This document shows, piece by piece, positions 12,764 to 62,043 of a DNA stretch of 64,000 nt (position 1 is the first letter of the stretch; every line of letters starts with the position of its first letter). Position numbers and translations under genes: made by a program. The notes beneath the pieces are model-generated. The model had not been told where the DNA came from. It saw only the letters and a list, made by a program, of their open reading frames with translations, and did not search any database. Origin of the DNA: Fischerella sp. PCC 9431 (GTDB lineage: Bacteria > Cyanobacteriota > Cyanobacteriia > Cyanobacteriales > Nostocaceae); the NCBI RefSeq assembly GCF_000447295.1, contig NZ_KE650771.1, forward strand, positions 3,545,964 through 3,609,963. The letters run 5' to 3'.

Positions 12764-12885
12764 GACGCGGTGATGCGGTGATGAGGAGACGCGGGGACGC
12801 GGTGAGGTGGTGATGCAGGGGATAAGAATGAACCCTCCACGTCTTTCCTTCTCCCCTTCCCCGCGTCTCCGTGTCCTCTTCTTTC
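12764..12885. repeat. Intergenic copy of the GACGCGGGG/CCCCGCGTC palindromic repeat family
   Basis: Lies between plsY and the SDR gene. The left arm is G-rich (GACGCGG, GATGCGG, GGGGACGCGG units), the middle is AAGAATGAA, and the right arm is C-rich (CCCCGCGTCTCCGTGTCC). The arms are partly complementary, so a large hairpin is possible. The same family is inside four genes of this window; this copy is one of two in non-coding DNA. Confidence 0.75.
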
Positions 12886-12900
12886 CTCTTGTTTTATCTT

Positions 12901-13614
12901 TTACCACGCAAGAGGCTTCCCATCCCGGAAGAATCCACCTGTAGGCCCATCATCGGGTAACGTTGCTGCCCACACAACCCCTGCTGCACCATCTTCAACT
13001 GGTCGTCCTCCTGCGCCACCCATCTCGGTTGCAACCCAGCCTGGACAAACTGAGTTAACTAAAATACCACTTCCTTTTAATTCGTCAGCTAGCATTCGAG
13101 TCAGTGCATTAAGTGCTACTTTTGACACACTGTAGGCGGGTGTACCACCACTCATACTAGTTAACGATCCGGCTCCACTGGAAACATTAACGATTCGTCC
13201 ATGTTTGCTTTGGCGTAACAAGGGAATAAACGCTTGACACATACGCCAAGGTCCAAAGGTATTGGTTTCTAGTGCTTCGTGTACTGTGTCAAAGTTAGCG
13301 TTGATTGCTTGCTGCCAAGTGTCGTACAGAATACCAGCATTATTAATCAGGATATCTAATCGCCCAAATTCTTCTTTGACTTGAGTTACTAAGCGATCGA
13401 TACTTTCTTGATTAGTTACATCTAGCCAACGCGGTAAAACCTCAAGTCCTTTTTTTGCCAATGTTTCGGCTGCGGCTTTTCCCTTTTCTAGGTCACGCGC
13501 CCCTAAAATTACAGTAATATTTTGACGAGCAAGTTGACGTGCAACTTCCAGTCCGATACCTCGATTTGCCCCAGTTGCGATCGCTATACTTGGTATTGTC
13601 TTTTCTGAGTTCAT
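12901..13614 (-). CDS. Short-chain dehydrogenase/reductase
   Basis: A 237-residue classical SDR. The cofactor motif is ATGANRGIG (residues ~12-20), NNAG follows at ~90, the active-site serine lies in VNVSSGAG, and YSVSK carries the catalytic Tyr and Lys. Arg in the glycine-rich loop (GANRGIG) and GARDLEKG suggest NADPH. The overall pattern resembles carbonyl reductases, but the substrate cannot be assigned. Upstream (higher coordinates) is vapC on the same strand, 48 bases away and probably unrelated in function. Confidence 0.92.
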   Translation of the reverse strand: MNSEKTIPSIAIATGANRGIGLEVARQLARQNITVILGARDLEKGKAAAETLAKKGLEVLPRWLDVTNQESIDRLVTQVKEEFGRLDILINNAGILYDTWQQAINANFDTVHEALETNTFGPWRMCQAFIPLLRQSKHGRIVNVSSGAGSLTSMSGGTPAYSVSKVALNALTRMLADELKGSGILVNSVCPGWVATEMGGAGGRPVEDGAAGVVWAATLPDDGPTGGFFRDGKPLAW

Positions 13615-13662
13615 TAGCGCTCCTTTGTGGTTGTGATACTTACACCATAAAGGTTACTATCT

Positions 13663-14055
13663 CTACGGCTGTGTCTGAACGTGAGGGTAACTGCGGATCT
13701 TGCTATCCATTGTCACCAATGGACAATCAAAAAGTCGTGCTGTTGCAACAATAATTTGATCGGCAGGATCACGATGAAAATCACCAGGTAGTTGGGTAGA
13801 CTCTACACAAATCCGGGGTGTTAGCTCCACAAGACAAATACCAGGATAACCAAGGGCTTGATCTAGCCATTTATCTACAGAAAAAGGCAGAATCAATCGA
13901 CCACGCTCTACTAACTTTGCAACTTCCCAGCAAGAGATAGCACTAACGCCTAAACCTTGTAATTCCTGCGCTTGGATATAGTCTTGATATTCCTGAGTGA
14001 GCTGAGTATCTCCATGAACCCACCAAACCCAAATATGGGTATCAAGCAAAATCAT
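13663..14055 (-). CDS. vapC: PIN-domain toxin, VapC type
   Basis: A 130-residue PIN ribonuclease. Acidic active-site residues are seen in ILLDTHIWVWW, ISCWEVAK, and DPADQIIVATARLFDCPLVT with the final D of TMDSKI. VapC toxins cleave tRNA or rRNA when not held by their antitoxin. The ATG at 14055 overlaps the stop of the antitoxin gene as ATGA, a sign of translational coupling; a longer start at 14070 would overlap more and adds only MGSYT. Confidence 0.92.
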   Translation of the reverse strand: MILLDTHIWVWWVHGDTQLTQEYQDYIQAQELQGLGVSAISCWEVAKLVERGRLILPFSVDKWLDQALGYPGICLVELTPRICVESTQLPGDFHRDPADQIIVATARLFDCPLVTMDSKIRSYPHVQTQP

Positions 14056-14267
14056 TGTGTAACTTCCCAATCGTCTTGAGCTACAGGTTCAGTCGGCGCA
14101 ACATATTGAATAGCAGTTCCGCGAAGAGGATACCTGTTTTGCTCAGATGCTTTTTGGGGTTGAGACAGGATAATTACCTCAACCCGTTCCCCAGAGTGAA
14201 ATGGCAAGTTTTCTAACGTCAGCTTTCGATCTTGTCCGATTGTTGTTTCAACGCGGTGTGCCAGCAT
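14052..14267 (-). CDS. vapB: VapB-type antitoxin
   Basis: 71 residues, directly upstream of and overlapping vapC. The N-terminal half (VETTIGQDRKLTLENLPFHS, GERVEVIIL) resembles the short beta-rich DNA-binding antitoxins that pair with PIN toxins in cyanobacteria. The acidic C-terminus (TEPVAQDDWEVTQ) is likely the toxin-binding tail. The pair is expected to repress its own promoter just upstream of 14267. Confidence 0.8.
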   Translation of the reverse strand: MLAHRVETTIGQDRKLTLENLPFHSGERVEVIILSQPQKASEQNRYPLRGTAIQYVAPTEPVAQDDWEVTQ

Positions 14268-14627
14268 AGTATAGGTTCAAACAAGAACTGTAGCAACATT
14301 ATAAAACTAGAAAAGTAGGTCAGCTTAGGTTTGAACTCAATATCTTAAGTACTAAAGCTGCTTGCTAAGAAAGATTTATTAACCTGTAAACATTAGCAAA
14401 ATCTACAAAACAACTTCTAATTTCAAATTTGTTTGCAACGTCTTTAGTCTAGGAGTAACCCACTTTTTATGCCAATAGTCTACATTGTTAATGCATCGGC
14501 TTACATTGCTAATGTATCGATGCTACACCCAGATTGATTCCACGGTTCAATCCAAAATCCAAAATCGGATGACCAGTGACTCCCAGATTTGGTAAGCTAA
14601 AAACCTAGATAAACTATTATAAAAACC
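14268..14627. other. Gene-free stretch upstream of vapB and chlD
   Basis: Divergent promoter region. It holds two direct copies of a ~20-base sequence ending ATTGYTAATGYATCG (14484-14503 and 14504-14523) and a short AATCCAAAATCC repeat near 14549. No gene is seen. Confidence 0.45.
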
Positions 14628-16718
14628 ATGCCTGCGCCTACTATAACTGCTACAACTACCACCTTTCCCTTGGCTGCTGTCGTCGGTCAAGAAGCAATTA
14701 AACTAGCCTTACTCTTAGCAGCAGTTGATCCGGGGTTGGGGGGAGTAGCGATCGCAGGTCGTCGTGGTACGGCAAAATCTGTTATGGCGCGGGCGATTCA
14801 CGCTCTACTACCACCGATTGAAGTTGTCAAAGGTTCACTCAGCAATTGCGACCCCGACCACCCAGAAGAATGGGATGATAAACTTCTCTCTTTTGTGGAA
14901 GAAGGTGGACAAACAGAAACCGAAGTTATTCCTGCACCCTTCATCCAAATTCCTTTGGGAGTCACAGAAGACCGACTCATTGGTTCTGTAGATGTAGAAC
15001 AGTCGGTCAAACAAGGACAAACTATTTTTCAACCAGGACTACTCGCAGCTGCAAACCGGGGCGTTCTCTACGTTGATGAAATCAATTTATTAGATGACCA
15101 AATTAGCAACCAACTTTTATCAGTATTATCTGAGGGTCGTAACCAAATTGAGCGGGAAGGTATAAGTTTCCAACATCCTTGTAAACCCTTATTTATCGCT
15201 ACATATAACCCAGAAGAAGGTGCTTTACGAGAGCATTTACTCGATAGAATTGCGATCGTGCTTTCTGCGGATGGTGTTTTGGGTTTAGACCAAAGAGTGC
15301 AAGCAGTAGAACAAGCGATCGCCTACTCGAAATCTCCCCAAGAATTTCTCCAGCAATACAGCGAAGATATCGACGCCCTGAAAACTCAAATTATCTTCGC
15401 GCGGGAATGGTTAAAAGATGTCTGCATCACCCATGACCAAATTACCTACTTGGTAGAAGAAGCAATTCGCGGTGGTGTCCAAGGACATCGGGCGGAATTA
15501 TTTGCTGTGCGAGTAGCGAAAGCTTCAGCAGCGTTGGATGGACGCACCCAAGTAAACGCCGATGATTTGCGTCGAGCGGTGGAATTAGTCATCGTACCAC
15601 GGGCAACTCAGATCCAAACACCCCCACCTGACCAACAACAACCCCCACCACCACCTCCTCCTCCCCAAGATCAACAAGAACCTGACGACGAAGAACAAGA
15701 ACAGGAAGAAGAGGAAGATAACGAAGAACAACAAGAACCGCCCAATATTCCCGAAGAATTTATCTTTGACCCGGAAGGAGTGGTTCTGGATCAAAGTGTG
15801 CTTTATTTTGCTCAAATGGCACAGCGACACGGTAAATCCGGAAGTCGGAGTTTAATCTTTTCAGAAGACCGGGGACGTTACATCAAGCCAATGCTGGCTA
15901 AAGGCAAAGTTCGGCGAATTGCCGTAGATGCCACAATGCGAGCCGCAGCCCCGTATCAAAAAGCACGACGCGCTCGATATGAAAGACAGGGTGACGCGGG
16001 GACGCGGGGACGCGGGGACACGGGGAATATAAATGAAACACTCTCCGCGTCTTCTACGCAAAAACGGGTATTTATTGAACAAGGCGATATTCGCTCGAAG
16101 CGGCTAGCACGTAAAGCTGGAGCGTTGGTAGTATTTATTGTTGATGCTTCTGGCTCAATGGCGTTGAATCGGATGCAATCTGCTAAAGGTGCAGTGATGC
16201 AACTGTTGACAGAAGCATACCAAAATCGTGATCAAGTAGCTTTGATTCCCTTCCGGGGAGAACAAGCTGAAGTTTTGTTACCACCAACTCGTTCGATCGC
16301 ATTAGCAAGAAACCGTTTGGAAAGATTACCTTGTGGTGGCGGTTCACCACTAGCACACGGTTTGACGCAAGCTGTGCGGGTGGGATTAAATGCTCAAATG
16401 AGTGGAGATATTGGTCAAGTTGTCCTGGTGGCGATTACCGATGGTCGGGGTAATATTCCCTTGTCCCGTTCTTTGGGCGAACCACAAGAAGCGGGAGAAA
16501 AACCAGATATCAAAGCCGAACTGTTAGATATTGCTGCGAGAATCCGGGCTTTGGGAATGCAATTATTGGTGATTGATACCGAAAGTAAGTTTGTTTCCAC
16601 TGGTTTTGCCAAAGAAATAGCCAAAACAGCCGGAGGTAAGTATTATCATTTGCCTAAAGCTAGTGATAAAGCGATCGCAGCAATGACCAAAGGAGCGATC
16701 GCGGATATTAGAAAGTAG
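14628..16718 (+). CDS. chlD: Magnesium chelatase subunit D
   Basis: A 696-residue subunit of the ATP-dependent chelatase that puts Mg into protoporphyrin IX, the committed step to chlorophyll, with ChlI and ChlH. An AAA+ domain is N-terminal: Walker A-like GRRGTAKS at residues 44-51 and [13 protein letters not shown] Pro-rich and then Glu-rich linker follows (about residues 330-375), then a C-terminal integrin-I domain with the metal-binding DASGSM near residue 507. Between linker and I-domain, residues ~453-477 ([13 protein letters not shown] and on) are encoded by a copy of the dispersed GACGCGGGG repeat inserted without breaking the frame. Starts at ATG. Confidence 0.97.
15985..16055 (+). 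repeat. In-frame repeat copy inside chlD
   Basis: Three perfect GACGCGGGG units, then GACACGGGGAATATAAATGA, then a short C-rich arm CTCCGCGTCTTC. The unit is 9 bases (three codons), so the insert adds about 24 residues without a frameshift. It lies at the start of the linker-to-I-domain junction. Confidence 0.85.
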
Positions 16719-16731
16719 TCATCACGAAATT

Positions 16732-16792: not shown

Positions 16793-16810
16793 TAAGAAAT
16801 TCGCTTCCGT

Positions 16811-16838: not shown

Positions 16839-16881
16839 ACAGTAGGTTTAGCGGAGACAACTTTTGATTATTTTTGTGAAT

Positions 16882-21005: not shown

Positions 21006-21006
21006 A

Positions 21007-33577: not shown

Positions 33578-33707
33578 TAGCGTAAGAGAGTCGATTAGTA
33601 TTGACCGATAGTTCCTCCCAAGGTACAAGCCTCTAATCCCCAAATTGAGGGTTAAGGGGAGGTCAATCCAAAATCTAAAATCCAAAATCCAAAATTGGTT
33701 GACTCTC

Positions 33708-35813
33708 ATGCTTTATCCAGAACGGTTGCATCAACTTACCAAAGAACATGCAGATACTGTAGCAGCCCTTGTGTGTGGGTTGTTTTTATTTTGCGGATGG
33801 TTCGCCTTACACCTTGGGTTTTTGGGATGGGCGTTGTTGCTGTTACCCATCGCCTATGTGATTGGTGGTTACGAAAGCGCCCGTGAGGGACTCACAACCC
33901 TGATCAAAGAAAAAGAACTGGATGTAGATTTGCTGATGATAGTGGCGGCGCTTGGTGCAGCTGGGCTGGGTTTATGGCGAAGAGAATATTACTTAATAAT
34001 CGATGGGGCGATTTTGATTCTCATCTTTGCGATTAGTGGCGCCCTAGAAGGTTATGCAATGCGGCGAACTGAACGCAGTATCCAAAGTTTGATGAGCTTA
34101 ACACAGGATACAGCCAGGGTTGTGCGTCAAGATAAAGAAGAAGTCATTACGATCGCGCAGTTACAATTAGGAGATGAAATCATTGTCAAGCCAGGAGAGT
34201 TAATTCCTACAGATGCGGTAATTATCGAAGGTTACAGTACTCTCAACCAAGCTGCAATTACAGGCGAGTCTTTACCTATTGAGAAAACAGTCGGTGATGA
34301 AGTATTTGCAGGTACGCTAAACGGCTATGGGGCGCTGAAATTAAAACTACATCAACCACCGGAAAGTAGTTTGATTCAACGGGTGATTCGTTTAGTACAG
34401 CAAGCACAAACAGAAACACCTCCCTCTCAACAGTTTATTGAACGATTTGAACGAGGATATGCACGGGTAATTGTGCTTGCTGGCGTGCTGCTGTTGATTT
34501 TGCCACCATTCCTTGGATATTGGGACTGGGAAACATCGATTTATCGGGCTTTGACTTTTTTGGTAGTGGCTTCTCCCTGTGCATTAATGGCTGCAATTAT
34601 GCCAACCTTACTTTCGGGGATTGCGAACGGGGCCAAACAGGGAATTTTGTTTAAAAATGGTTCTCAATTAGAAATGATGGGGAAAGTCCGAGCGATCGCT
34701 TTTGACAAAACTGGTACTCTCACAACAGGAATCTTAGAAGTCTGTGAAGTCATCCCCACTAGTGAATATACAAAAGATGATGTATTAAAAGCTGCTGCTT
34801 CTGTAGAATCTCGTTCCGAACATCCCCTTGGTGAAGCAATTGTCAAAGCTGCAAAAAACCTGGATTGGACAGCCGCAACAGAAGTAAAAGCTTTCCCAGG
34901 ACAGGGAATTATTGGTATTGTAAATAACCAGGAAATAATCGCCGGGAAAGATGATTTTGTCAAAAACTATGTTGTTGATTTACCTCAAAACTTAATTGAG
35001 ATAGCGAGCAAATTCGAGTTACAAGGGAAAACGGTTGTTTGGATAGGAGAAAATGAAGAGGAGACGGGGACAGAGGGACAAGGGGACGCGGGGAAGCGGA
35101 GTAAAGAGGACACGGTGAGACGGAGTAAAGGGGACACGGTGAGACGGAGTCAACAAGACGCCGAGAATGTATCCTCCGCGTCTCCCCCTCTCCCCATCCC
35201 CGTGTCTCCCCCTGACTCTATCACCGCGTCTTCTTCACTCTCCGCTTCATATCAAGTGCTAGGTATTATTGCCATTGCTGATACAGTGCGATCGCAAGCA
35301 GGAACAACTATTTCTCATCTGAAAAAATTGGGAGTTGAGCAAATAGTCATGCTGACTGGAGATAATCAACAGACTGCTGAAAGTGTGGCGCGGGAATTGG
35401 GAGTAGATCGAGTGTATGCAGAGTTATTACCAGAAGATAAACTGCATGTGATTCGCCGTTTACAGCAAGAGTATAAAACAGTCGCTATGGTAGGTGATGG
35501 TATTAACGATGCACCAGCCCTAGCTCAGGCGTCTGTAGGTGTTGCTATGGGGACAGCAGGAAGCGATGTAGCATTAGAAACTGCGGATATTGTCTTGATG
35601 GCAGATAGATTAGAGAAAATCGAAGTAGCGATGCGATTAGGTAAAAGAGCGCAAGCAATAGTAAAACAGAATATTACTATTGCTTTAGGATTTATTGTTT
35701 TACTGTTAATTGGCAACTTTTTGGGTGATATTAACTTACCTATCGGTGTAGTCGGACACGAAGGTTCTACTGTATTAGTTACCCTGAGTGGTTTACGATT
35801 GTTGAAAAATTGA
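33708..35813 (+). CDS. P1B-4 type metal-transporting ATPase
   Basis: 701 residues: transmembrane helices, actuator TGES loop, SPCALMAAIMP in the metal site, phosphorylation motif DKTGTLT (Asp ~333), GDGINDAPALAQ hinge and a final HEGSTVLVTLSGLRLL. SPC in place of CPC with HEG(S/G)T marks the P1B-4 subclass (CoaT/CzcP/PfeT), which exports Co, Zn, Fe or related divalent ions. There is no N-terminal heavy-metal domain. ATG 33708 is chosen because the frame upstream to 33645 is encoded by an intergenic AAATCCAAAATCC repeat. Residues ~451-515 derive from a dispersed repeat inserted in frame between nucleotide-binding and phosphorylation parts. Confidence 0.93.
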   Translation: MLYPERLHQLTKEHADTVAALVCGLFLFCGWFALHLGFLGWALLLLPIAYVIGGYESAREGLTTLIKEKELDVDLLMIVAALGAAGLGLWRREYYLIIDGAILILIFAISGALEGYAMRRTERSIQSLMSLTQDTARVVRQDKEEVITIAQLQLGDEIIVKPGELIPTDAVIIEGYSTLNQAAITGESLPIEKTVGDEVFAGTLNGYGALKLKLHQPPESSLIQRVIRLVQQAQTETPPSQQFIERFERGYARVIVLAGVLLLILPPFLGYWDWETSIYRALTFLVVASPCALMAAIMPTLLSGIANGAKQGILFKNGSQLEMMGKVRAIAFDKTGTLTTGILEVCEVIPTSEYTKDDVLKAAASVESRSEHPLGEAIVKAAKNLDWTAATEVKAFPGQGIIGIVNNQEIIAGKDDFVKNYVVDLPQNLIEIASKFELQGKTVVWIGENEEETGTEGQGDAGKRSKEDTVRRSKGDTVRRSQQDAENVSSASPPLPIPVSPPDSITASSSLSASYQVLGIIAIADTVRSQAGTTISHLKKLGVEQIVMLTGDNQQTAESVARELGVDRVYAELLPEDKLHVIRRLQQEYKTVAMVGDGINDAPALAQASVGVAMGTAGSDVALETADIVLMADRLEKIEVAMRLGKRAQAIVKQNITIALGFIVLLLIGNFLGDINLPIGVVGHEGSTVLVTLSGLRLLKN
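35058..35240 (+). repeat. In-frame repeat copy inside the P1B ATPase gene
   Basis: Contains GACGCGGGG, then GGAGTAAAG-GACACGGTGAGA units, a centre GAGAATGTATCCTCCGCGTC, and a C-rich arm CTCCCCCTCTCCCCATCCCC. It stays open through ~60 codons. The segment 35100-35215 is close to identical with the reverse complement of 42956-43060 in another gene. Confidence 0.85.
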
Positions 35814-39903: not shown

Positions 39904-40354
39904 AGATAGTCCTCCTAATTGTGTTGTCAGCTAGTCGGTTTGGAATATTGCGTAAATATATATTACGCCAATCTTAAGAAATTATTGTGAGTCTATAGGA
40001 AATTATAACTAGTGATGAGTGTCTATGCTGAAAAAGTTTCCACTATCTGTGGATAAATATCCCCTATTGTTGCTCAATGCTACTGTACAATTGGCTACCT
40101 AAGACTTTGAAGCTTTGGTAACACTGTATTCCAAAGGAGCAATCGGTGGGCATTGGGCATGGGGCATTGGGCATTGGGCATTGGGCATTGGGCATTGGGG
40201 ACAAGGGGGACAACTAATCAGTTATCAGTTATCAAATTAAACTGGTCACTGATAACTGTTCACTGTTCACTGTTCACTGTTTACTGATTCATGCCCAATG
40301 CCCAACAATCTGTGGATGTAAATATGATTCTTCTTACACGCCTAATATCTATAA
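39904..40354. repeat. Repeat-rich gap: GGGCATT heptamers and a CAGTTATCAG palindrome
   Basis: Seven tandem GGGCATT/G units at 40148-40196, then an imperfect palindrome at 40208-40290 with CAGTTATCAGTTATC and CACTGATAACTGTTCACTG arms, followed by TTCACTG heptamers. The part nearest 39904 should hold the fba promoter. No gene. Confidence 0.8.
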
Positions 40355-41858: not shown

Positions 41859-41917
41859 CTTACCCCAAACAATCACGAGAAGTTACCCTGTCTTTGAGAT
41901 CATAGCGCGATTAGAAT

Positions 41918-41973
41918 CAGTTACCAGTTATCAGTTATCAGTTATCAGTTATCAGTTACCAGTTATCAGGTAT
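41918..41973. repeat. Heptanucleotide tandem repeat CAGTTAT x8
   Basis: Eight consecutive units CAGTTAT/CAGTTAC/CAGGTAT, ending five bases before the stop codon of the next gene. Confidence 0.92.
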
Positions 41974-41977
41974 CGGT

Positions 41978-43288
41978 TCAGACTTCCAATGAAGAACGGA
42001 ACAAAACTCGTCCTGGAATTACCTCATCGTTAATTTTGGCATATACTCGCAGACAGGCTGAAACTTCTCCTGGTACTCCACCAATCTCTAGTTGTAAATC
42101 GTCTTTTGAGTAACTATAGATATCGGCGTAGGTTCCCCACAATGGGCGAATTTGTACCTGATAACCAGCATCACGGGCTTTTCCCACGATACCATCAAGA
42201 GTCCGACGGGCTTCTTGTTGGAGTTTTCCCCACCAAGAAAAGCGATCGCACGGTGGCAAATATACTAAAGAATGAATCGCTTCATCTAAATCTAATCTCG
42301 CCCGGAGTGCGATCGCCGGGTCAGCATTGATAGTAGTAGAGACACGTTGAAACCGATCTACAAGTGCTGTTGCATACTTAGTTTTTTCTGCTTCCGAGTT
42401 TAAAGGTCTCACACCAAACCGATCTACGCTTTTAAAAGCATGGTGTAAACACGGGTCTGTTTCGATAAAATAGAGACAAACAGATACAATCCCCGCCAAC
42501 ACATCGAGTTTTCCGCCTCTTTTTTCGACTTGCAACTGAGGATCAAAATCAACCTGTTCTGATAGAAACAAACCAGTTGCATAAACATTTCCCTGTAAAC
42601 CAGGGTAAACAGGTTGATTGCGGCTAAAACCAACCTGTTGCACAGCAAACTTTTCTTCCAAAGCACCGAACTGACTTACTTCCGCCAAAATGCATTCCCG
42701 CCAAGTCTCAGCTAGTTTTTCCGGGACTCGTAGCAGCAAGCGTTGGATCTCATTCCACAAATCAAGATCATTGTTGCTGTGAAACTGGTACGCACCAACA
42801 TATTGCAACAAATCTTGATCAGCCAGCAAAAATTCACCAATGTCTTTGAGTTTTTGTTCTTTGGGAATTTCCAGTTGAATTGGTTCTAACACATCGTCCC
42901 AAGTGGGGGATGTGGGGACGGGAGGGGGAGACGCGGGGATGGGGGGAGGGGGAGACGCGGGGATGGGGAGAGGGGGAGACGCGGAGGATACATTCTCCGC
43001 GTCTTGTTGACTTCGTCTTACCGTGTCCCCTTTACTCCGCGTCACCGTGTCCTCTTTACTCCGCGTCACCGTGTCCTCTTTACTCCGCGTCACCGCGTCT
43101 TTGTCTGTCTGTGATTGCAAAAGTTGATCTAATTCGCGCACAAGTTCCTGACAAGCGCTCTTACCCGGATCTGTTGTATCTTCCTTGAGTGCTTCTTGTA
43201 ATTGAGTCCGCAGTCCATGTAAACCTAACCGCAGTACCCAAGCTAATTGTGAGTCCTCAATTTCTAATAATTTGCTGAGGTGCTGCAT
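41978..43288 (-). CDS. Unrecognised protein, third gene of the dynamin/actin-like unit
   Basis: 436 residues. N-terminal helical segment (LSKLLEIEDSQLAWVLRLGL), then residues ~60-132 encoded by the dispersed repeat (KEDTVTRSKEDTVTRSKGD, then Pro/Ser-rich PASPPPPIPASPPPVPTSP), then a globular ~300-residue part with RVPEKLAETWRECILAEVSQ, IVSVCLYFIETDPCLHHAFK, LDLDEAIHSLVYLPPCDRF and a C-terminal beta part (IGGVPGEVSACLRVYAKIND). No known fold recognised. The gene lies on the same strand as the Hsp70/actin-like and dynamin-like genes and is probably their partner. Confidence 0.8.
   Translation of the reverse strand: MQHLSKLLEIEDSQLAWVLRLGLHGLRTQLQEALKEDTTDPGKSACQELVRELDQLLQSQTDKDAVTRSKEDTVTRSKEDTVTRSKGDTVRRSQQDAENVSSASPPLPIPASPPPPIPASPPPVPTSPTWDDVLEPIQLEIPKEQKLKDIGEFLLADQDLLQYVGAYQFHSNNDLDLWNEIQRLLLRVPEKLAETWRECILAEVSQFGALEEKFAVQQVGFSRNQPVYPGLQGNVYATGLFLSEQVDFDPQLQVEKRGGKLDVLAGIVSVCLYFIETDPCLHHAFKSVDRFGVRPLNSEAEKTKYATALVDRFQRVSTTINADPAIALRARLDLDEAIHSLVYLPPCDRFSWWGKLQQEARRTLDGIVGKARDAGYQVQIRPLWGTYADIYSYSKDDLQLEIGGVPGEVSACLRVYAKINDEVIPGRVLFRSSLEV
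42893..43110. repeat. In-frame repeat copy inside the third gene of the unit
   Basis: On the plus strand: GGGGGAGACGCGGGGATGGG units, centre GGAGGATACATTCTCCGCGTC, then ACTCCGCGTCACCGTGTCCT units in tandem (18-base period). It is the longest coding copy, ~70 codons. Confidence 0.88.
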
Positions 43289-43314: not shown

Positions 43315-43478
43315 AGGGAACAGGGAACGGGGAACAGGGAACGGGGAACAGGGAATAGGGAATAATATAGGATTTGGGAGTAAAACCCGATTAAGAAAAA
43401 ACTATGGGTTTCAAGTCAGACGCGGTTTAATGAAACAATTTCTTACTCTGTTCCCTGTTCCCCGTTCCCTGTTCCCTG
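43315..43478. repeat. Segment flanked by inverted GGGAACA / TGTTCCC heptamer arrays
   Basis: At 43315-43371 GGGAACA and GGGAACG units alternate; at 43448-43478 the complement appears (CTGTTCCCTGTTCCCCG). The middle 75 bases are unique. It separates the Hsp70/actin-like gene from the third gene. Confidence 0.8.
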
Positions 43479-43484
43479 TGTTTA

Positions 43485-46904: not shown

Positions 46905-47283
46905 TATTTATAGATTCCCTTAACAATAAATGGGGGATAGGGGATAGGGGATAGGGGATAGGGGATAGGGGATTGGGGATTGGGGGTCGGCGATTGGGAA
47001 TAAAGGATTGGAGATGCGGGGACGCGGGGACGCGGGGATGTGGGGATGCGTGGATGTGGGGATGGGGATGTGGGGACGCGGGGATGTGGAGATGTGGAGA
47101 TGTGGGGACGCGGGGACGCGGGGACGCGGTGATGTGGGGATGCGGTGACGCAGTAAGTAGGAGACAAGGGAAAAATATATCAAAAATATTCAACCTGTCC
47201 TCCTTGTCCTCCTTGTCCTCCTTGTCCCCATTCCCCATTCCCCAATCCCCGATCCCCATTCCCCAATCCCCAATCCCCAATCC
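46905..47283. repeat. Dense tandem repeats between the dynamin-like and actin-like genes
   Basis: Seven GGGGATA/GGGGATT heptamers (46933-46981), then about fifteen units of the 9-base GATGTGGGG/GACGCGGGG type (47011-47156), then TCCTCCTTG 9-mers (47200-47226), then CCCCAAT-type heptamers to 47310. Frames in this segment are artefacts of the repeats. Co-transcription across it is expected but unproven. Confidence 0.92.
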
Positions 47284-49860
47284 CTATTCCCCAATCCCCA
47301 ATCCCCTATCCCCGATCATTGCTACTTGCGAAAGTGTTTCTAACCAAGGTGGAACTGATTTTGATTTGTTTTTGTCGGCGTCGGCGATATATCTTAGTAA
47401 TGGTTCGTGCTTTGATTTCAATAGTTCTTGTAAACTATCGACAATCTCTTTCAACGCCCTGGAAAAAGAAGATTTCACCTGTTTAGTTAACTGACTCACG
47501 TACTGTACTAAATGCAAACCAGCGCTGGCGGTGATTTCGTCTCGCAGGCGCAAAACGGCGATTTGATGATTAAATGGTCTGGGTGGAGTGGGAAATTGTT
47601 TATCAGGACTCCAATCTAAAATTTGCCCGTTGGGATGTTTCTCATCTTGACGCGCTAGGGGAAATAAAGCGTCGGCGTTGATGGCATGATTGTTATTAGC
47701 TAATCCACTATGATCGATAATTAATCTTTGCCATTTATTGGCTGGATCAACGGCGCGTAATAAGTTACGAAATAGACGGAGTTGATTTTTGCCAAAGTTG
47801 TCTTGAATGTACTTTTCGATGTCTGGCGAGAGGACAGAGTTAACTGTGTTACGTTCGTCAGCAACTTCGATCGCCAGCTTTTTGAAAAAATCAATTACTG
47901 CTTCGGTGGTGCGATCATGGGCGAAGCTTTGCATTTCTTGAATTGTTTGCACAAATGCAGAATAGAAATCATCGCTTTTTGTCGGAATACTATCTTCTAC
48001 TTCTTCGTCACCAAAAAAGCTGTCAGCTTTGGTGAGAGAAATTGTCCCATTTTTAGTGCGATCAAATAGTAATGTCCATTCACTCCATTCAAAGAAGATT
48101 TTATTAGTTAATTCGTCTTTGACAACATCACTGACAGCGACGCTATCCCGATTTTTTAATATGGGTTGCTTTTCTAATTCTTCTTGAAATTGTCTGTAAA
48201 TACTAACTAAATTTTCAATTCCTTGGCGCAGTTCAATAAATTTCGGGTTTTCTTCGACGGGGATATAAGCGGGTACTTGTTCGAGGAGAGTTTTTAAGTT
48301 GTCTTGGTCTTTTTGCAAAGCTTTGACGATTCTTTGAGTATCCTCAACAAGTTGTTTCAAACCATGTTGGGCGACATGATCTTTAATTAACGCCCGTAGT
48401 CTGCTGATTCCTCCGTCTTCTGCAAAGTCACCAAGTTGTTTTTGCAGAGTACTCGATGGCGGTAACATTTTACTGAGTTGTTGCCATTTTTCCCGCAGTT
48501 CCACTTCTGAGAGTTTGTTGGGGATGTCTAATTCTGGCAAAAACTCCGGTGAGGAAACCTGAATCAACGAAGAAAGTTCCGCGAGTTTAGCTAAACCGTG
48601 GAGTTGGGATAATAAAACTATATTTTTTTTCTCTGTGGTTAAATTACTGGCACTAGCAATGGTAAGTTGCAGAATACCGAGGTTTTCTAATATATCGGTT
48701 TCCGAAAGTAATGGTTCATCTACAAGTTCATCAAGGGCGCGTTCGTCACTTTGAGTTAGGGGAAGTTGATTGAAGCGTCCGACACCAACGATAATTCTAT
48801 CTCTTAAATCGTGTCCTTTGTCGCGTTCCAACATCGTGCGAATTTTTGAGGCGATCGCACCACCAGGATATCTACCGTTGAGTAACAACAGCAGAGTTTG
48901 CACGTCTCTGAGTTCCCGCAATGATAAAAAGGTATCCCGCACCCCGGAATCTGCGGAACCTAAACCGGGAAAGTCTAGCAAAACAAATTCGTTGGTTCCT
49001 TGCAGTCCAGATAAATCCCAGATTTCCTTTGATACTTCAACAGTAACATCAATGCGGCGAATCAAAGAAAAGCTTTTCTGTAAATCAACTGCTGATGGTT
49101 GAGCAAAATTTGTCCACGGTTGCGGTGGTGGTGGTAGTTGATCAAAGCTGAGTTCTAAGATATTCATGGGTGGTTCAGATAACCTCAGCCCTTTTTTGGC
49201 AGTAGTATGATCTATTTGGTAGCTTTTACCGCCGATAAATTTGCCGTAAGTATTGTAGGTACGCATATACACGACAATTTCGCGCAGTAGCGATCGCAGT
49301 TCTAAACTTTGCGTCTGATTCCAAGCTTGTTCGCACCATCTCAAGATTCCGTTGCTATCAACAATTGTTGTCGGGTGCAAATTTTTGAGATTAGTCAGCA
49401 AATCTAGAGATATTTCTGATGCTTTCGCCCGTGTTTCCACCTCCTGAAGCATAAACCGCAGACACTCTTTCACACCTTCATCGGAAAGATACTCAACGGT
49501 GTATTTCCCGACTTGGGTTGTTTGTAAATCTGGTTGTTGGCGCAAATGAATGGCGGTGACGTTCCCGGTAGTGGGGGTTTCACTGACTGGTAAAGCATCA
49601 GCGTAGCCGATGAGACTGCCAATCAATAAAGTTTTGCCACTACTAAATTCACCCATAACGCCGATTTTTACAGGCGAAGAGGCAATATCTACTACTCGTT
49701 GAGCAGATTCTTTTAAACTTTGAATGTTTTCATGTATACTTTGAGGAAACCAGCTTTCCTGGGGAGGCGGGTTTTGTGAGACTAACTCCAAGCTTTGGAG
49801 AACAGATTCCCCATATTCTTTGTAACAGCTCAGTTGTGCGATCGCCATGTCACTCTTCAT
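47284..49860 (-). CDS. Dynamin-like large GTPase (SrfC-like architecture)
   Basis: 858 residues. G1 GEFSSGKT (residues 70-77), G2 threonine in SETPTTGNVTAI, G3 LLDFPGLGSADSG, and a degenerate G4 (VGVGRFNQLP) with no canonical T/NKxD. Long helical middle and C-terminal parts follow, as in bacterial dynamins and clamp-like GTPases; no membrane span is evident. The start at 49860 has GGAG five bases upstream. The last eleven residues ([11 protein letters not shown]) and the stop codon are supplied by the GGGGATT heptamer repeat, so the original C-terminus has been replaced or extended. First gene of the three-gene unit. Confidence 0.88.
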   Translation of the reverse strand: MKSDMAIAQLSCYKEYGESVLQSLELVSQNPPPQESWFPQSIHENIQSLKESAQRVVDIASSPVKIGVMGEFSSGKTLLIGSLIGYADALPVSETPTTGNVTAIHLRQQPDLQTTQVGKYTVEYLSDEGVKECLRFMLQEVETRAKASEISLDLLTNLKNLHPTTIVDSNGILRWCEQAWNQTQSLELRSLLREIVVYMRTYNTYGKFIGGKSYQIDHTTAKKGLRLSEPPMNILELSFDQLPPPPQPWTNFAQPSAVDLQKSFSLIRRIDVTVEVSKEIWDLSGLQGTNEFVLLDFPGLGSADSGVRDTFLSLRELRDVQTLLLLLNGRYPGGAIASKIRTMLERDKGHDLRDRIIVGVGRFNQLPLTQSDERALDELVDEPLLSETDILENLGILQLTIASASNLTTEKKNIVLLSQLHGLAKLAELSSLIQVSSPEFLPELDIPNKLSEVELREKWQQLSKMLPPSSTLQKQLGDFAEDGGISRLRALIKDHVAQHGLKQLVEDTQRIVKALQKDQDNLKTLLEQVPAYIPVEENPKFIELRQGIENLVSIYRQFQEELEKQPILKNRDSVAVSDVVKDELTNKIFFEWSEWTLLFDRTKNGTISLTKADSFFGDEEVEDSIPTKSDDFYSAFVQTIQEMQSFAHDRTTEAVIDFFKKLAIEVADERNTVNSVLSPDIEKYIQDNFGKNQLRLFRNLLRAVDPANKWQRLIIDHSGLANNNHAINADALFPLARQDEKHPNGQILDWSPDKQFPTPPRPFNHQIAVLRLRDEITASAGLHLVQYVSQLTKQVKSSFSRALKEIVDSLQELLKSKHEPLLRYIADADKNKSKSVPPWLETLSQVAMIGDRGLGIGE

Positions 49861-52427: not shown

Positions 52428-52462
52428 AAGATTAGCAACATTTGCTTGCGAGACGGGTCAGT

Positions 52463-53826
52463 GTTTTAGTCCCCTTTCGGGGTTTTGCGAGTTAGAAACC
52501 CGTTTCTGGGCTATAAGCATATGCACTTGTGATAGTTTCAATCCCCTTTCGGGGTTTTGCGAGTTAGAAACTATCAGCACCCAAGACTGGGTCAGGTTAT
52601 TGTCGTCGGTTTCAATCCCCTTTCGGGGTTTTGCGAGTTAGAAACCCTCCTGGGATGACTACAAAAAAGCTTTAGGCTAGAGTTTCAATCCCCTTTCGGG
52701 GTTTTGCGAGTTAGAAACTCTCTGGCAACTGAGCGATGTTTACGCTCATGCCACCGTTTCAATCCCCTTTCGGGGTTTTGCGAGTTAGAAACTTGAGCAA
52801 GTCGAAAAAATGATTGAGCAGTATAAAGTTTCAATCCCCTTTCGGGGTTTTGCGAGTTAGAAACTTGTTGGTGTTAAGGCATCAATAGATGCCGACTTCT
52901 AGGTTTCAATCCCCTTTCGGGGTTTTGCGAGTTAGAAACCTGATGAGGTGTACATCATTAGAACAGGAATAGAAACCGTTTCAATCCCCTTTCGGGGTTT
53001 TGCGAGTTAGAAACCAAAATTTAGGTATAACAGGAGTTGGAGGAGATTTTGTGTTTCAATCCCCTTTCGGGGTTTTGCGAGTTAGAAACTTGGATTGTGG
53101 CAAATTCAGTGGGTAGGGCCACTGAAACGTTTCAATCCCCTTTCGGGGTTTTGCGAGTTAGAAACGAATTGTTCGAGTCATTGATTTTAGCCTTTCTTTT
53201 CTGTTTCAATCCCCTTTCGGGGTTTTGCGAGTTAGAAACATAAATAATTCGTTCGACACATTAATTTGAGGGTTGTTTCAATCCCCTTTCGGGGTTTTGC
53301 GAGTTAGAAACCGAGGCTTTAGCCAGAAGAATTGAAGGGATAGAAGTTTCAATCCCCTTTCGGGGTTTTGCGAGTTAGAAACAAAAATATTCGACATTTT
53401 TAATGGCTATAAGCGCATGTTTCAATCCCCTTTCGGGGTTTTGCGAGTTAGAAACTTTTATCAGTAGCTTTGGATTGCGTCATAACGAGATTGGTTTCAA
53501 TCCCCTTTCGGGGTTTTGCGAGTTAGAAACTCTAGAATTCGTTCCGGGTATTCCGGGTAGTTCCTGTTTCAATCCCCTTTCGGGGTTTTGCGAGTTAGAA
53601 ACTTTATCAGATTTTGGTGGTGTTGAAGCGTTTAACAATGCGTTTCAATCCCCTTTCGGGGTTTTGCGAGTTAGAAACGAGAATATCCAACAGTCAATCG
53701 AAAAAATCATCGAAAGTTTCAATCCCCTTTCGGGGTTTTGCGAGTTAGAAACCTCAAAGTTTGTTGGCGTCTATATATAAGGGACTAACGTTTCAATCCC
53801 CTTTCGGGGTTTTGCGAGTTAGAAAC
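52463..53826 (-). CRISPR. CRISPR array, 19 repeats of 37 bases and 18 spacers
   Basis: Repeats start at 52463, 52535, 52609, 52682, 52756, 52828, 52903, 52978, 53053, 53129, 53203, 53275, 53346, 53419, 53494, 53566, 53642, 53716 and 53790. The plus-strand unit begins GTTTCAATCC, has a CCCCTTTCGGGG stem and ends GTTAGAAAC. Spacers are 34-39 bases and none repeats. The repeat at 52463 is degenerate (GTTTTAGT at its edge); all others are identical. On the minus strand the repeat ends GGGGATTGAAAC, the usual cyanobacterial crRNA handle, so transcription is right to left with the leader beyond 53826. There are no cas genes in the window. Confidence 0.98.
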
Positions 53827-54060
53827 CCTACCATACTGAAACTGTTGCAGAGTAAGCATTCTGGGAACGATTTTGGCAGGTCTCAAAAATAAGTCTATTT
53901 CAGCCCATCTTATTGCAAGTAAATTGCAACTTCCCAGATATTGAAAACGCTGTAATTATTAACTTGTCTAGGTTCTGGGGATTTTGGCAGACCTCCAGGG
54001 TTTTTGACCCCGCTTAGACGCGCCAAAAATCTCATACATTCAGGGTAATACTAGCTTGAT
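53827..54060 (-). promoter_or_regulatory. Probable CRISPR leader
   Basis: Adjoins the end opposite to the degenerate repeat. It contains two related TTTTGGCAG-CCTC boxes (53872-53886 and 53980-53997), a CCAGGGTTTTTGACCCCG segment and CGCGCCAAAAATCTC, features seen near cyanobacterial arrays. Orientation is inferred from repeat degeneration and handle sequence. Confidence 0.6.
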
Positions 54061-54181: not shown

Positions 54182-54385
54182 CGGTGTACACACAAATCCA
54201 GGTTGAGCGCATATGTACGCCTCGGAATAAATTCCGAGTCTCATAGCGCAAGTCCTCTGAAGAGGACTCATAGAGAAATTCGATTTAGTCCATGAAGTGG
54301 ACTTAAGCTATTAGCCTGGAACTTTAGTTCTAGGCGGGATATTGGTTCAGCTTGAAGATTTTCGACTTGACTTGTGTGTACACCG
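54182..54385. mobile_element. MITE-like element A2, TA target
   Basis: 204 bases with ends CGGTGTACACACAAATC and GACTTGTGTGTACACCG, flanked by TA. The interior has four hairpins: CTCGGAATAAATTCCGAG, AGTCCTCTGAAGAGGACT, AGTCCATGAAGTGGACT and GCCTGGAACTTTAGTTCTAGGC. The same core is in A3. Confidence 0.75.
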
Positions 54386-54577
54386 TAGGTTCTCTTCATT
54401 GATCAGAGGCGATCGCACAAACACGAAATTGACGATTCTTAAGCCTATCCCTTTGAGGAGTGTGATCAGCCTCTGTAACATATCCAGTAACTATTGTGAT
54501 ATAAATAATATTTAAAAGTACAAAATAATATCTAATTAGCTATTGCCAATAATAATAATTCGTATTAATATACAAAT

Positions 54578-54934: not shown

Positions 54935-54980
54935 GTAAGGTCACAAAAATCTCTTATTCATAGATAAATCACGACACTTG

Positions 54981-55150
54981 GAGCAATTGTTGTAACGTTA
55001 GTTGATAACATTGTTCCATTCATAGATAACATCGTAACAATTGGGGCAATTGTTACAACCTTACTTATTAATGTTGTTCCATTAATAGATAACATCGTAA
55101 CAATTGGGTCAATTGTTACGACCTTACTTATGAATGAGACGACATTTGCC
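54981..55150. repeat. 63-base tandem repeat with palindromes, open on both strands
   Basis: About 2.5 units; full units start at 55016 and 55079. Each contains GTAACAATTG-GG-CAATTGTTAC, a long palindrome. The minus strand has an 89-codon open frame (54958-55227), and the plus strand also encodes an open repetitive peptide (IVTIGAIVTTLL-like). Either or neither may be a gene; no ribosome binding site supports one. Confidence 0.7.
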
Positions 55151-55212: not shown

Positions 55213-55555
55213 TGGGTGTACACACAAATCTTGGTGCAGTATTTATCCCGCCTCGGAATAAATTCCGAGTCTAATAGCGAAAGTCCTCTAAAGAGGACTC
55301 ATAGAGAAATTCGATTTAAGTAGAACAGGTTAAATAATTAAAGGCTCGTAGTGAGAACTTTAGTTCTCAAAAAAGGACTAAAGTCCTTACTACGAACTGA
55401 ATCCGAGTCTTTTACATTACTTAACATAGTTTGGTTTTTTCAAGTCGTTCTACTTAGTCCACTTGAGTGGACTTAAGCTATTAGCCTGGAACTTTAGTTC
55501 TAGGCGGGATATTGGTTCAACTTGAAGATTTTCGACTTGACTTTTGTGTACACCG
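55213..55555. mobile_element. MITE-like element A3, interrupted by another insertion
   Basis: The left end (GGGTGTACACACAAATC) is slightly decayed; the right end (CTTTTGTGTACACCG) is followed by TA. It has the same hairpin core as A2 but is split by a 136-base insertion at 55319-55454. Confidence 0.75.
55319..55454. mobile_element. Nested 136-base insertion with TA duplication
   Basis: Begins AGTAGAACAGG and ends CGTTCTACT (8-base inverted ends AGTAGAAC/GTTCTACT), flanked by TA on both sides. The uninterrupted sequence in A2 (GATTTAGTCC at 54281-54290) shows exactly one TA there, which proves the insertion. The inner part carries a GTAGTGAG...CTTACTAC palindrome as at 38656. Confidence 0.82.
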
Positions 55556-55726
55556 TAGTTGCAAAGGGAGGGTCTTTGTATGCGTCTTCATATTAAATCA
55601 GTATTAGGTTGAAAAACTAGTGAAAACAAATACAAACTTTTGGAAAATCTAGTGATTTTCCTGAGCCATAATCTAGTCTTTCTAAGCCAAGCTAATACTG
55701 TAATAACTTACAGGGTGTGTAAATTT

Positions 55727-58813: not shown

Positions 58814-59343
58814 AAATAATTAAATGAGCGATCGCTTCTGTTTTATATTGAGCTTTTTAACCAAAATATTAAAAAAGTTCTGTAAAAATGCAATATTTTA
58901 GAAATCATTCATTAACTTAAAAATCATAAGTTTGATATTATATTTATTGGGCAGATATTAATGAGAGGTTATTTATCAAGTAAAAATAAAATTACTGTAG
59001 GATGTGTTGTGTTAGAGCCGTATTTTGCTCTAATTTTTCACGAAAAAGCTATACAGCAGATTTCAGGTAAATGAGGTACAAATTTTAAAAACAAAGCCAT
59101 ATACCAAGAGACTTTCAAACCTGTTCCCCGTTCCCTGTTCCCCGTTCCCTGCTGTATGAGCGCTATCATACACCAATAGATCACATGGTGCGTGATAGCG
59201 AAGTCATAACTCACCCTACTACTACTAATATTACTATTAAGAGGTGTTTGCCTGCTGTTCCCCGTTAAGAGTTCCCTGTTCCCTCTGAATTATTTTAGGT
59301 TTTACACTTTTGAAGCTGGAAGATTAATTGCTTCACCACATTC
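58814..59343. other. Gene-free stretch with repeats
   Basis: AT-rich first half; near 59119-59150 TGTTCCCCGTTCCC heptamers; at ~59160-59202 an imperfect hairpin (GCTATCATACACCA against TGGTGCGTGATAGC); near 59258 another TGTTCCCCG unit. No gene seen. Confidence 0.5.
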
Positions 59344-62043
59344 ATGAAAGCTCTACCCAATAATCAGGAAAAAGCAAGATTAGCAGCTCTTCGTCACTAC
59401 CAAATCCTCGATCATGTCACCGAAGCAGCTTTTAAAAATCTTGTTGAATTAGCAGGTATTATCTGTAATACACCCATCGCTTGTATTAATTTTATCGATG
59501 AACATCGACAATCGATCCCAGCAAAAGTGGGTTGGGGTGTGACTGAATTACCGCAGGATGTGGGGATGTGTCCTGTTTGCATTCAGCAAAAAGATATTTT
59601 GATTGTTGCTGATAGCTTGACAAATCAAGTATGGGCAGAAAATCCCATCACAGCCGAACCTTACAATATCAGATTTTATGCTGGCGTACCTCTGTTGACA
59701 CCAGAAGGATATGCGATCGCCACTCTGTGCGTCATGGATCGTCAACCCCGACAACTAAATTCTGAACAAATCACAGCTTTGCAAAAATTAGCTCAACAAG
59801 TAATGCTACTACTGCAAAGACAATCACTCAACGCTCCATTACAAGATTGTCAACGTGTAGAAGCAGCACTCCGAGAAAATGAACAACGCTTGAAGCTAGC
59901 ATTGCAAGCTGGTAAGCTTGGCTCTTGGCAGTTGGATTTAAAAACAGGGGAATTGTTTACATCTAATCAATGTAAAGCCAATTTTGGTGTACTTCCCAAA
60001 ACAGATTTTTCCTTCACAATGCTGTTAGATTGCATCCACCCAGAAGATCGCGACTATGTACGTGACTCTGTGAAGCAAGCTTTGGAACAGCAAATTGATT
60101 ATGAAGCAGAGTATCGAACAATTTGGCCAGATCGTAGCATCCATTGGATGTTATCGCGGGGTCGTGGCATCTACGAAACCGATGGTACACCAATACGGAT
60201 GATTGGTGTGACTTTAGATATTACCGAACGCAAGCAAGCAGAAGAAGCTTTGCGTCAAAGTGAAGAAAGATTACAGTTAGTGATTGATGCGACAAACGAT
60301 GCAATTTGGGATTGGGATATTGTCAAGAATACATGCTTTTGGTCAAAGCGATTTTATGAATTATTGGGTGTAAAACACACAGGCAAAAGGCACTTTTATG
60401 AATCTCTTTATCACTTAGTATATCCTGATGATCGAGAAAAATTTGCAGAGTTACTTTACCAACATCTGGAATTTAATCAGCCTTATCAAATAGAAGTGCG
60501 ATTACGTCGGATTGATGGTAGATACAACTGGTTTTTAATCAGAGGAAAAGTAATTCGCGATGACGATGGTCGAGCGCTACGAATGGTGGGAGTATTAAGT
60601 GATATCTCAGAACGCAAGCGCACAGAAGAAGAATTAAAACAACAAAATCAGCGATCGCAACTCTTAGCTGAAATTGCTTTGAAAATTCGCCAACACTTAG
60701 AAACAGAAGAAATTCTCCGCACCACAGTTACAGAAATCCAAAAACTTTTATATGCGGATCGGGTGATTATCTATCGACTGTGGAATGATGGTTCTGGCAC
60801 AGTTGTACAAGAAGCAGTCGTCAATGGTTGTAATTCAATTTTAGGGCGAAAGCTTTTTGAGCGGTGTTTTCAAGAAAATTATCACGAAGCTTATCGCCAA
60901 GGCAGAATTAATATTATCTGTGATGTCAAATCAGAAAGCGTCCATCCTTGTCATCGAGAATTTCTGAAAAATATAGATGTTAAAGCTCATATACTTGTAC
61001 CAATTATTGTCAGAGATACACTTTGGGGTTTATTAATTGCTCAACAATGTATCCGTCCGAGAAAGTGGAGTAATTGGGAAATTGAGTTATTACAACAACT
61101 AGCAAATCAGATTGGTATTGCTTTAGCCAAAGCGCAATTACTGGAAAAAGAAATACAGCAACGTGAAGAATTAGCTCGTTCCAACGGCGAATTAGAGCAA
61201 TTTGCTTATGTTGCTTCCCATGACTTGCAAGAACCACTACGCATGGTCACAAGTTACTTACAATTACTAGATAGAAAGTATAAAGGTAAACTTGACAATA
61301 AAGCCGATGAATTTATTGCCTACGCCGTAGATGGTGCAAAACGGATGCAAATCTTGATTAATGATTTGTTGAGTTTTTCCCGTGTCAGTACCCGTGGACA
61401 ACCATTTGGAGTCGTTGATTGTCATAGTGTATTACAACAAGCGATCGCCAATCTCAAAATCGCAATTACCGAAACTCAAGCAGTCATCACCTACGACGAA
61501 CCTCTACCCCAACTCATCGCCGACGCTACCCAATTAACACAAGTATTTCAGAATTTAATTAGTAATGCCATTAAATTTCGCAGCGACCAACCCCCACAAA
61601 TTCATATTGGTGTAGCGAAGAGAGATGAGGGAGACGCGGAGAATATCAGACACGGGAACGCTTGTGAAGACGGGGAGAATATTAGACGCGGTGACGCTTG
61701 TGAAGACGGGGAGAATATTAGACGCGGTGACGCGGGGATTATTGTTGATAGATTCACCGCGTCCTCGCGTCCTCATATCTCCGTGTCCTTTCCCCCCGCG
61801 TCCTCTTCCCCCGAATGGCTCTTCTGGGTACGTGATAATGGAATTGGGATGGAACCTCAGTATAGCGATCGCATCTTTATCATTTTTCAGCGTTTGCACA
61901 CTCGCGACAAATATCCCGGTACTGGTATTGGTTTGGCAATTTGTAAAAAAATTGTTGAACGTCACGGTGGACAAATCTGGGTTGAGTCAAAACTTGGTCA
62001 AGGAACCACCTTTTACTTCACAATTCCAGATAGGATTAGGTAG
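59344..62043 (+). CDS. Multi-domain sensor histidine kinase (GAF-PAS-PAS-GAF-HisKA-HATPase)
   Basis: 899 residues, soluble. Order: GAF (~20-160, with MCPVCIQQKDILIVAD), PAS (~185-310) and PAS/PAC (~312-435, WFLIRGKVIRDDDGRALRM), GAF (~450-600, ADRVIIYRLWNDGSGTVVQE), HisKA with His 626 in YVASHDLQEPLRMV, and ATPase domain with N box FQNLISNAIKFRS, G1 WVRDNGIGM, F box IFIIFQRLH and G2 GTGIGLAIC. The GAF lacks an evident bilin-binding Cys motif. Residues ~760-822 come from a dispersed repeat inserted between N and G1 boxes. The next gene, a response regulator, is the likely partner. Confidence 0.93.
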   Translation: MKALPNNQEKARLAALRHYQILDHVTEAAFKNLVELAGIICNTPIACINFIDEHRQSIPAKVGWGVTELPQDVGMCPVCIQQKDILIVADSLTNQVWAENPITAEPYNIRFYAGVPLLTPEGYAIATLCVMDRQPRQLNSEQITALQKLAQQVMLLLQRQSLNAPLQDCQRVEAALRENEQRLKLALQAGKLGSWQLDLKTGELFTSNQCKANFGVLPKTDFSFTMLLDCIHPEDRDYVRDSVKQALEQQIDYEAEYRTIWPDRSIHWMLSRGRGIYETDGTPIRMIGVTLDITERKQAEEALRQSEERLQLVIDATNDAIWDWDIVKNTCFWSKRFYELLGVKHTGKRHFYESLYHLVYPDDREKFAELLYQHLEFNQPYQIEVRLRRIDGRYNWFLIRGKVIRDDDGRALRMVGVLSDISERKRTEEELKQQNQRSQLLAEIALKIRQHLETEEILRTTVTEIQKLLYADRVIIYRLWNDGSGTVVQEAVVNGCNSILGRKLFERCFQENYHEAYRQGRINIICDVKSESVHPCHREFLKNIDVKAHILVPIIVRDTLWGLLIAQQCIRPRKWSNWEIELLQQLANQIGIALAKAQLLEKEIQQREELARSNGELEQFAYVASHDLQEPLRMVTSYLQLLDRKYKGKLDNKADEFIAYAVDGAKRMQILINDLLSFSRVSTRGQPFGVVDCHSVLQQAIANLKIAITETQAVITYDEPLPQLIADATQLTQVFQNLISNAIKFRSDQPPQIHIGVAKRDEGDAENIRHGNACEDGENIRRGDACEDGENIRRGDAGIIVDRFTASSRPHISVSFPPASSSPEWLFWVRDNGIGMEPQYSDRIFIIFQRLHTRDKYPGTGIGLAICKKIVERHGGQIWVESKLGQGTTFYFTIPDRIR
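61620..61815 (+). repeat. In-frame repeat copy inside the histidine kinase ATPase domain
   Basis: GACGCGGAGAATATCAGACA opens it; a 48-base unit (AGACGCGGTGACGCTTGTGA and on) is present twice in tandem (about 61641-61740); the centre is GATTATTGTTGATAGATTCA; the C-rich arm has CCGCGTCCTCGCGTCC and CCCCCCGCGTCC. It remains open for ~63 codons. Confidence 0.85.

Follow-up and report, generated by a model that had tools for sequence, protein, structure and literature searches.

Palindromic repeats that lie in frame within proteins are best known from intracellular bacteria (Rickettsia, Wolbachia). According to the excerpted accounts, the Rickettsia and Wolbachia palindromic elements (RPE and WPE) are dispersed palindromes, in frame in unrelated genes, with several families per genome (PMC10969869, PMC2996958, PMC3733652). 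Analysis of a 64,000-nt stretch of the genome of Fischerella sp. PCC 9431 (hereafter the window) and of the rest of that genome revealed a repeat of the same general habit, here called the octamer element, with more than 50 copies in open reading frames (ORFs) of a large free-living filamentous phototroph. Like RPE and WPE it is palindromic, dispersed and in frame inside unrelated genes, a likeness at the level of description. Unlike them, its arms consist of tandem octamers and vary in length, its host is a free-living cyanobacterium, and the loops that carry it swap repeat families between species; we judge these arms, the single dominant reading frame and the swapping to be what sets the cyanobacterial repeat apart. 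We read the element as a dispersed, non-autonomous, protein-coding palindromic repeat that works like the RPE, with a probability of roughly 0.78. A literature search, judged on the titles and abstract openings of the records listed, found no account of in-frame palindromic repeats in cyanobacteria.

Repetitive extragenic palindromes (REPs) form a second group for comparison. In the excerpted source, those tagged CGTC have a stem of 8-9, a loop of 4-5 nt and an unpaired terminal CGTC; GTAG-12/15/16 are recorded from cyanobacteria, and CGTC repeats are not listed from them there (PMC3733652). Like both types as described in these excerpts, the octamer element has a short palindrome, with some copies within ORFs (PMC3733652). 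Unlike the REPs, so far as the excerpts go, its core has no unpaired tag, stem and centre are longer, and no transposase association was seen.

The short tandemly repeated repetitive (STRR) sequences are G-rich tandem units of 7 nt that occur genome-wide. The small dispersed repeats (SDR) of Nostoc punctiforme, attributed to Elhai (2008), reportedly comprise eight families of 21-27-nt dispersed repeats, some sharing a fold and often lying within heptamer arrays, and the Fischerella core could prove to be one of them. The heptameric G-rich simple sequence repeats (SSRs) of Nostoc and Xanthomonas have a unit of 7 and, in the excerpted description, are mostly intergenic and under-represented on the coding strand of ORFs (PMC4692102). 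Like them and the STRR, the octamer element consists of G-rich tandem units dispersed over the genome; unlike the heptameric SSRs, for which those excerpts describe no palindromic core, it has one (PMC4692102).

Architecture and distribution of the octamer element

An earlier note on the window had listed six places (~12764, 15985, 35058, 42893, 47011, 61620) as copies of one palindromic repeat with a 9-base tandem unit. The places are real: all 34 sites in the window that match GACGCGGNGACGCGG with two or fewer mismatches fall in them, against a mean of 0.08 and a maximum of 2 among 100 shuffles. The unit had to be corrected to 8 bases, GACGCGGN, since Tandem Repeats Finder (TRF) gave periods of 8, 16, 24 and 36 at the six places, values that also exclude the STRR heptamer. 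Nine-base units of the TGTCCTCCT and GGGGACAAG type do occur, next to some copies and frequently in relatives. The tandem-octamer arms flank a core of 35 nt, in which near-palindromic arms of 11 bp surround an AT-rich centre of 13 nt; its consensus is GACGCGGRGA, followed by a centre near ATTTATCAAAAACAC and then by TCTCCGCGTC.

Genome-wide, the exact octamer pattern has 84 matches in 7.17 Mb versus 0 for a reversed-pattern control, and a palindromic pattern search hit 23 places, with 26 matches on each strand. Thirteen cores, mostly from these 23 places, were used to build a core profile, model R1, with which 88 core places were recorded at 22 bits or more in fetched stretches of the genome. 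Such totals are lower bounds: 150 of 3958 first-look candidates were scored, and a 37.9-bit place on contig C2 was left out. Seven further places (22.7-30.3 bits, match spanning at least 47 nt) lie outside the 88 and bring the number to 95; the open-frame control, the nearest-relative class counts and the first phase count given below rest on the list of 88.

The element extends beyond Fischerella. With up to 48 candidates scored per genome, R1 cores (E up to 0.001) were found in at least 28 of the 145 family genomes and in at least 15 of 56 genera. One genome of another genus (G004) contains 542 octamer-pair matches, far above Fischerella. In twelve stretches of it the core matches were weak (18.4 bits or less), but the scan of the full genome gave at least 20 with E up to 0.001.

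Residence in genes and the dominant reading phase

Over half of the cores (55/88) fall within ORFs of 200 aa or longer that extend 60 aa or more beyond the core to either side, and 51 of these 55 begin at codon position 1 (GAC GCG G..). This phase, phase 0, is kept in both orientations, 33 cores being read in gene sense and 18 reversed (32/19 if one place is scored by its weaker match). Among the seven stretched-match places, 4 are inside ORFs, all in phase 0, giving 59/95 cores in ORFs and 55/59 in phase 0. When elements were defined instead by at least three exact octamer units, 61/89 fell in ORFs that continue for 30 aa or more to either side, and 56/89 in ORFs of 200 aa or longer.

The open-frame control consisted of the 33 non-ORF cores, extended by 16 nt on each side, in which phase 0 is open in 52% (same sense) and 61% (opposite sense), and the other phases in 27-58%. 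With frames drawn at random among those open, the expected share of phase 0 is 0.41, or 0.52 from the intragenic copies' own open frames, versus 0.93 observed (binomial p of 8e-16 and 6e-11, respectively). These p-values are too strong because the copies are related to one another; the excess is large all the same. It recurs in four other genera, represented by five genomes (G054, G066, G068, G082, G110), where 13 of 22 cores, taken as the best-scoring places irrespective of frame, are in ORFs, 12 of the 13 in phase 0; the sole off-phase core apparently lies in the same gene as one of Fischerella's own four exceptions. The dominance of a single phase probably reflects stop codons in the other frames of the core together with copying mainly from copies in genes.

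As the earlier note had stated, four of the six window places sit within ORFs that stay open; these encode ChlD, a P-type ATPase, a 436-aa protein and a PAS/GAF histidine kinase. The insert residues also agree with its description (GDAGTRG..., ...SASPRLPLSASS), and the peptides are hydrophilic in all four genes. Its argument that the frame holds since one 9-base unit equals three codons was wrong, the unit being 8. An array of GACGCGGG has no stop in any frame and yields the identical cyclic octapeptide in all three frames of one strand, and GACGCGGT units introduce TGA. A period divisible by 3 was found in 21/41 TRF arrays of coding elements versus 3/18 of noncoding ones (p 0.02), and among strong arrays (TRF score of at least 95, a cut-off set after viewing the array list) in 17/19 versus 1/5 (p 0.006).

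The remaining 33 of the 88 cores are outside ORFs of at least 200 aa, and 15 of them lie between two same-strand ORFs (at least 100 aa) within 260 nt. Among these 15 pairs, 4 had one side without a Pfam family; none of the other 11, with families on both sides, proved to be a split protein, and the LeuC/LeuD-like and KdpA/KdpB-like flanking pairs are natural neighbours. Frame disruption at the chance rate, which the earlier note had named as evidence against its proposal, has not been encountered so far among the 11 pairs judged.

Orthologous sites and copying between genes

Thirty coding sites, namely the first 26 of the 55 by coordinate and the four of the window, were compared with up to three same-genus genomes each, and ChlD with four named relatives. 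The length differences were 0 mod 3 in 83/86 cases, the exceptions being an anchor error with the frame open (L254), an assembly gap (L227) and a frameshift in a draft genome (L222); at the one intergenic site compared they were 0, 2 and 1 mod 3. The frameshift at L222, in the G003 orthologue of Fischerella's own copy 1435519, lies inside a 9-mer insert and is either real or a draft-assembly error. With this count beside those of ORF residence (55/88) and phase (51/55), the proposal of the earlier note, a dispersed palindrome entering genes in frame and comparable in principle to RPE, is supported.

Close relatives offer a natural before/after comparison at each site. ChlD is nearest to its orthologues in Pelatocladus, Fischerella and Westiellopsis (94-92% identity), and the +66 nt of its insert stand against 4/4 nearest orthologues, none with a core; the ATPase gene measures 236 versus 53 nt between anchors (+183 nt) against 3/3 relatives, again none with a core, and the gene of the 436-aa protein is 135-138 nt longer than in three relatives. 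An R1 core was likewise absent from the orthologous places of all four window genes in every relative examined, the kinase place being occupied in relatives by 9-mer or GTAG-type inserts. Over all sites, R1 detected a core (E up to 0.1) at the position compared in 10 stretches from relatives, representing 9 sites. Motif counts over the 86 site/relative pairs showed at least two octamer units in 8; 9-mers (GGGGACAAG type) were present in 26 and a GTAG-type palindrome, read as RRDESRLYIT or reversed, in 8, which leaves 44 without any of these motifs. Combining motif counts and R1, the family is in no relative examined at 19/30 sites, the window's four included; the motif count alone, which misses octamer units used as anchors, had given absence at 24/30.

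The site in ChlD was followed further in 80 orthologues, inspected by eye with the lengths of 77/80 recounted. The stretch between two conserved motifs measures 35 aa in 63 of them; 4 have 38 aa and 13 have 46-78. Among these longer linkers, some resemble other G-rich/C-rich repeat inserts, and none was recognised by eye as belonging to the octamer family; those of Scytonema, Hassallia, Tolypothrix and an uncultured cyanobacterium (L135, L141, L144, L145, L189) contain differing inserts of this repeat-like kind.

Three further observations concern relatives. A GTAG-tagged palindrome (AGACGCGATTCATCGCGTCT) is in frame in several genes (L216, L224, L225, L260, L272, L275, L276), where it reads RRDESRLYIT in one phase. 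A recurrent in-frame insert peptide (EPLRCAGSPRCSTWRGQG, with similar or reverse-type variants, in L252, L261, L215 and L268) perhaps represents a third family. In the G003 orthologue of own copy 2512668 (L284), the same loop contains an in-frame tandem repeat of 24 nt (NIETYHGT).

The best direct evidence of copying comes from the window itself, where positions 35080-35231 in the ATPase gene and 42929-43080 in the gene of the 436-aa protein match over 152 nt with 90% identity, both oriented alike relative to their genes. The match stops inside both inserts and the flanks are unrelated. Neither octamer units nor a core were found at the two sites in three relatives, and at the site in the 436-aa gene a GTAG-type palindrome is present in G002 and G003. 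That 152 nt are common to two unrelated genes points to copying of the whole element between genes. The best match of an element, arms included, is moreover of its own class (in or out of genes) in 73/89 cases versus 47 by shuffling.

If the inserts were instead home-grown low-complexity loops, generated by slippage in the tolerant loops of each gene and alike through the same slippage-prone units and not through copying, this would suit the hypervariability of the sites between species, the differing unit types and the expansion of arms in steps. The AT-rich centre common to 88 places and the 152-nt match speak against such an origin, as does the consideration that octamer slippage makes no inverted repeat with a defined centre, and we regard it as improbable.

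Under the preferred interpretation as an RPE-like repeat, whole elements would be copied to new places, as seen for one gene pair, chiefly from coding copies; insertions into genes would persist only if in frame and in tolerant loops or linkers, selection acting against loss of frame, as the length, phase and alignment data suggest. The arms may then lengthen and shorten by 24, 36 or 9 nt at a time, steps that preserve codons, and other repeat families may later take the place of an insert in its loop. A wider proposal, which we hold tentatively and at somewhat less than even odds, is that this repeat lineage has become adapted to coding sequence, passing from one gene to another with its single reading frame retained, and that loops of core proteins serve as common docking sites at which unrelated palindromic and tandem families replace each other between species; if so, a common repeat pool supplies and rewrites protein loops. 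The system opens to testing how repeats enter proteins unbroken, why one frame prevails and at what pace loops are replaced, and it calls for caution in annotation, as such inserts mimic species-specific domains.

Several results weigh against the RPE-like interpretation. The ORFs are computational, and indels in any working gene are expected to be multiples of three, so that the mod-3 result shows that frames are kept and not how. The family is present in at least one same-genus relative at 11/30 sites, and in L312 and L305 the element apparently occupies the same gene and place as own copies 4883748 and 4362288, respectively. The junctions of six sites aligned at the DNA level are fuzzy, with no visible target duplication and no fixed ends, and the flanks are often replaced too. 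By the core alone, 57/88 copies are nearest to their own class versus 46 expected, a weak signal equalled or exceeded in 36/2000 shuffles; the class split, strong with arms and weak without them, is therefore carried chiefly by the arms. In the loci (~3.4 kb) of the genome's 3 Y1-transposase genes, R1 detected no core at E up to 1. The stem showed no compensatory base changes (4 both-sided cells versus 13.5 by shuffling, 61 distinct gapless cores), and third codon positions were no more variable than the others.

Two suggestions of the earlier note are kept in part. Inserts shared by orthologues in distant cyanobacteria, which it had considered damaging, do exist at a few sites, the element being present in other genera at the orthologues of own copies 4362288 and 4883748 and in same-genus relatives at the 11 sites above; at 19/30 sites the family is in no relative examined. 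The shared sites are either old insertions or re-used places. Its term 'mobile' holds in the sense of copying, given the 152-nt pair and three relatives in which neither place has a core, but the search for a mobilising enzyme, for fixed ends and for a duplicated target was negative.

A REP, or a relative of one, moved by a REP-associated tyrosine transposase (RAYT-type) is a rival to which three Y1 genes in the genome lend some weight, as does the similarity of the GACGCG arms to the GTAG-type palindrome of relatives in the same loops (GTAGAGACGCG...CGCGTCT, at 8/86 site/relative pairs and mostly read RRDESRLYIT). The consensus, however, is without the GTAG tag and no core lies near any Y1 gene, which speaks against the GTAG REPs; the CGTC REPs do not fit either, as GACG and CGTC pair together inside the stem, with arms of 11 bp and a centre of 13 nt versus 8-9 and 4-5 in the excerpted account (PMC3733652). 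This origin appears distinctly improbable.

A benefit of the inserts, as linkers, in RNA structure or in expression control, could also have spread them by selection, and the one dominant phase, the hydrophilic peptides and the occurrence in regulators and enzymes would fit. Without covariation in the stem, a hairpin kept by selection is unsupported; third positions that are not extra variable give no sign of selection on the insert peptide, which was set aside. As many orthologues moreover have no insert or unrelated repeats, we consider spread by benefit very improbable, and the RPE-like repeat remains our preferred interpretation.

The six places in detail and other repeats of the window

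The six places are listed in Table 1. The ORF upstream of the first copy ends at 12759 and matches Pfam G3P_acyltransf. The AlphaFold model of ChlD is uninformative (mean predicted local distance difference test score 47.7). The core of the ATPase copy is degenerate (R1 16.0 bits, E 0.82) and is outside the 55 ORF cores, and its insert divides the Pfam Hydrolase match into two stretches. R1, run up to an E of 1, detects no core in the array at 47011. In the kinase gene, the core is best read from the opposite strand, and the insert lies within the HATPase_c domain, ahead of the DNGIGM motif, at a position we take to be a beta-hairpin loop; the Pfam HATPase_c match (811-897) begins at profile position 28.

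Table 1. Copies of the octamer element in the window, with model R1 scores and the length added relative to orthologues
Feature	Position	Strand	Core	R1 (bits)	Arms and periods	Length added
Intergenic copy 3' of plsY	12754..12880	+	12812-12843	31.9	octamer arm, core, C-rich arm; period 8	
In-frame copy in chlD (ORF 14628-16718)	15986..16054, ends approximate	+	16017-16051	40.4		66 nt
In-frame copy in P-type ATPase gene (33645-35813)	35046..35241	+	35157-35182, degenerate		period-24 arms	183 nt
In-frame copy in gene of 436-aa protein (41978-43288, -)	42911..43105	-	42978-43003	26.0	period-24 arms	135-138 nt
Intergenic octamer array	47005..47145	+	no core		periods 8/16, ~17 units; then 9-mer and heptamer C-rich arrays	
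In-frame copy in histidine kinase gene (59344-62043)	61613..61812	+	61729-61763	48.7	period-36 arm	30-117 nt

Repeats of other kinds are also present in the window. Heptamer arrays were found at 7055-7112, 9172-9340, 40147-40291, 41916-41978, 43315-43479, 46933-47002 and 47225-47317, some of them arranged as G-rich/C-rich pairs that resemble the octamer element in overall layout. A CRISPR-like array at 52460-53852 comprises 19 repeats (GTTTCAATCCCCTTTCGGGGTTTTGCGAGTTAGAAAC). Near-identical copies of another dispersed palindromic repeat (CCTCGGAATAAATTCCGAG, GCCTGGAACTTTAGTTCTAGGC) occupy 54218-54388 and 55249-55558, with further copies in L098 and L109, and a 63-nt tandem repeat of ~2.9 copies lies at 54956-55136.

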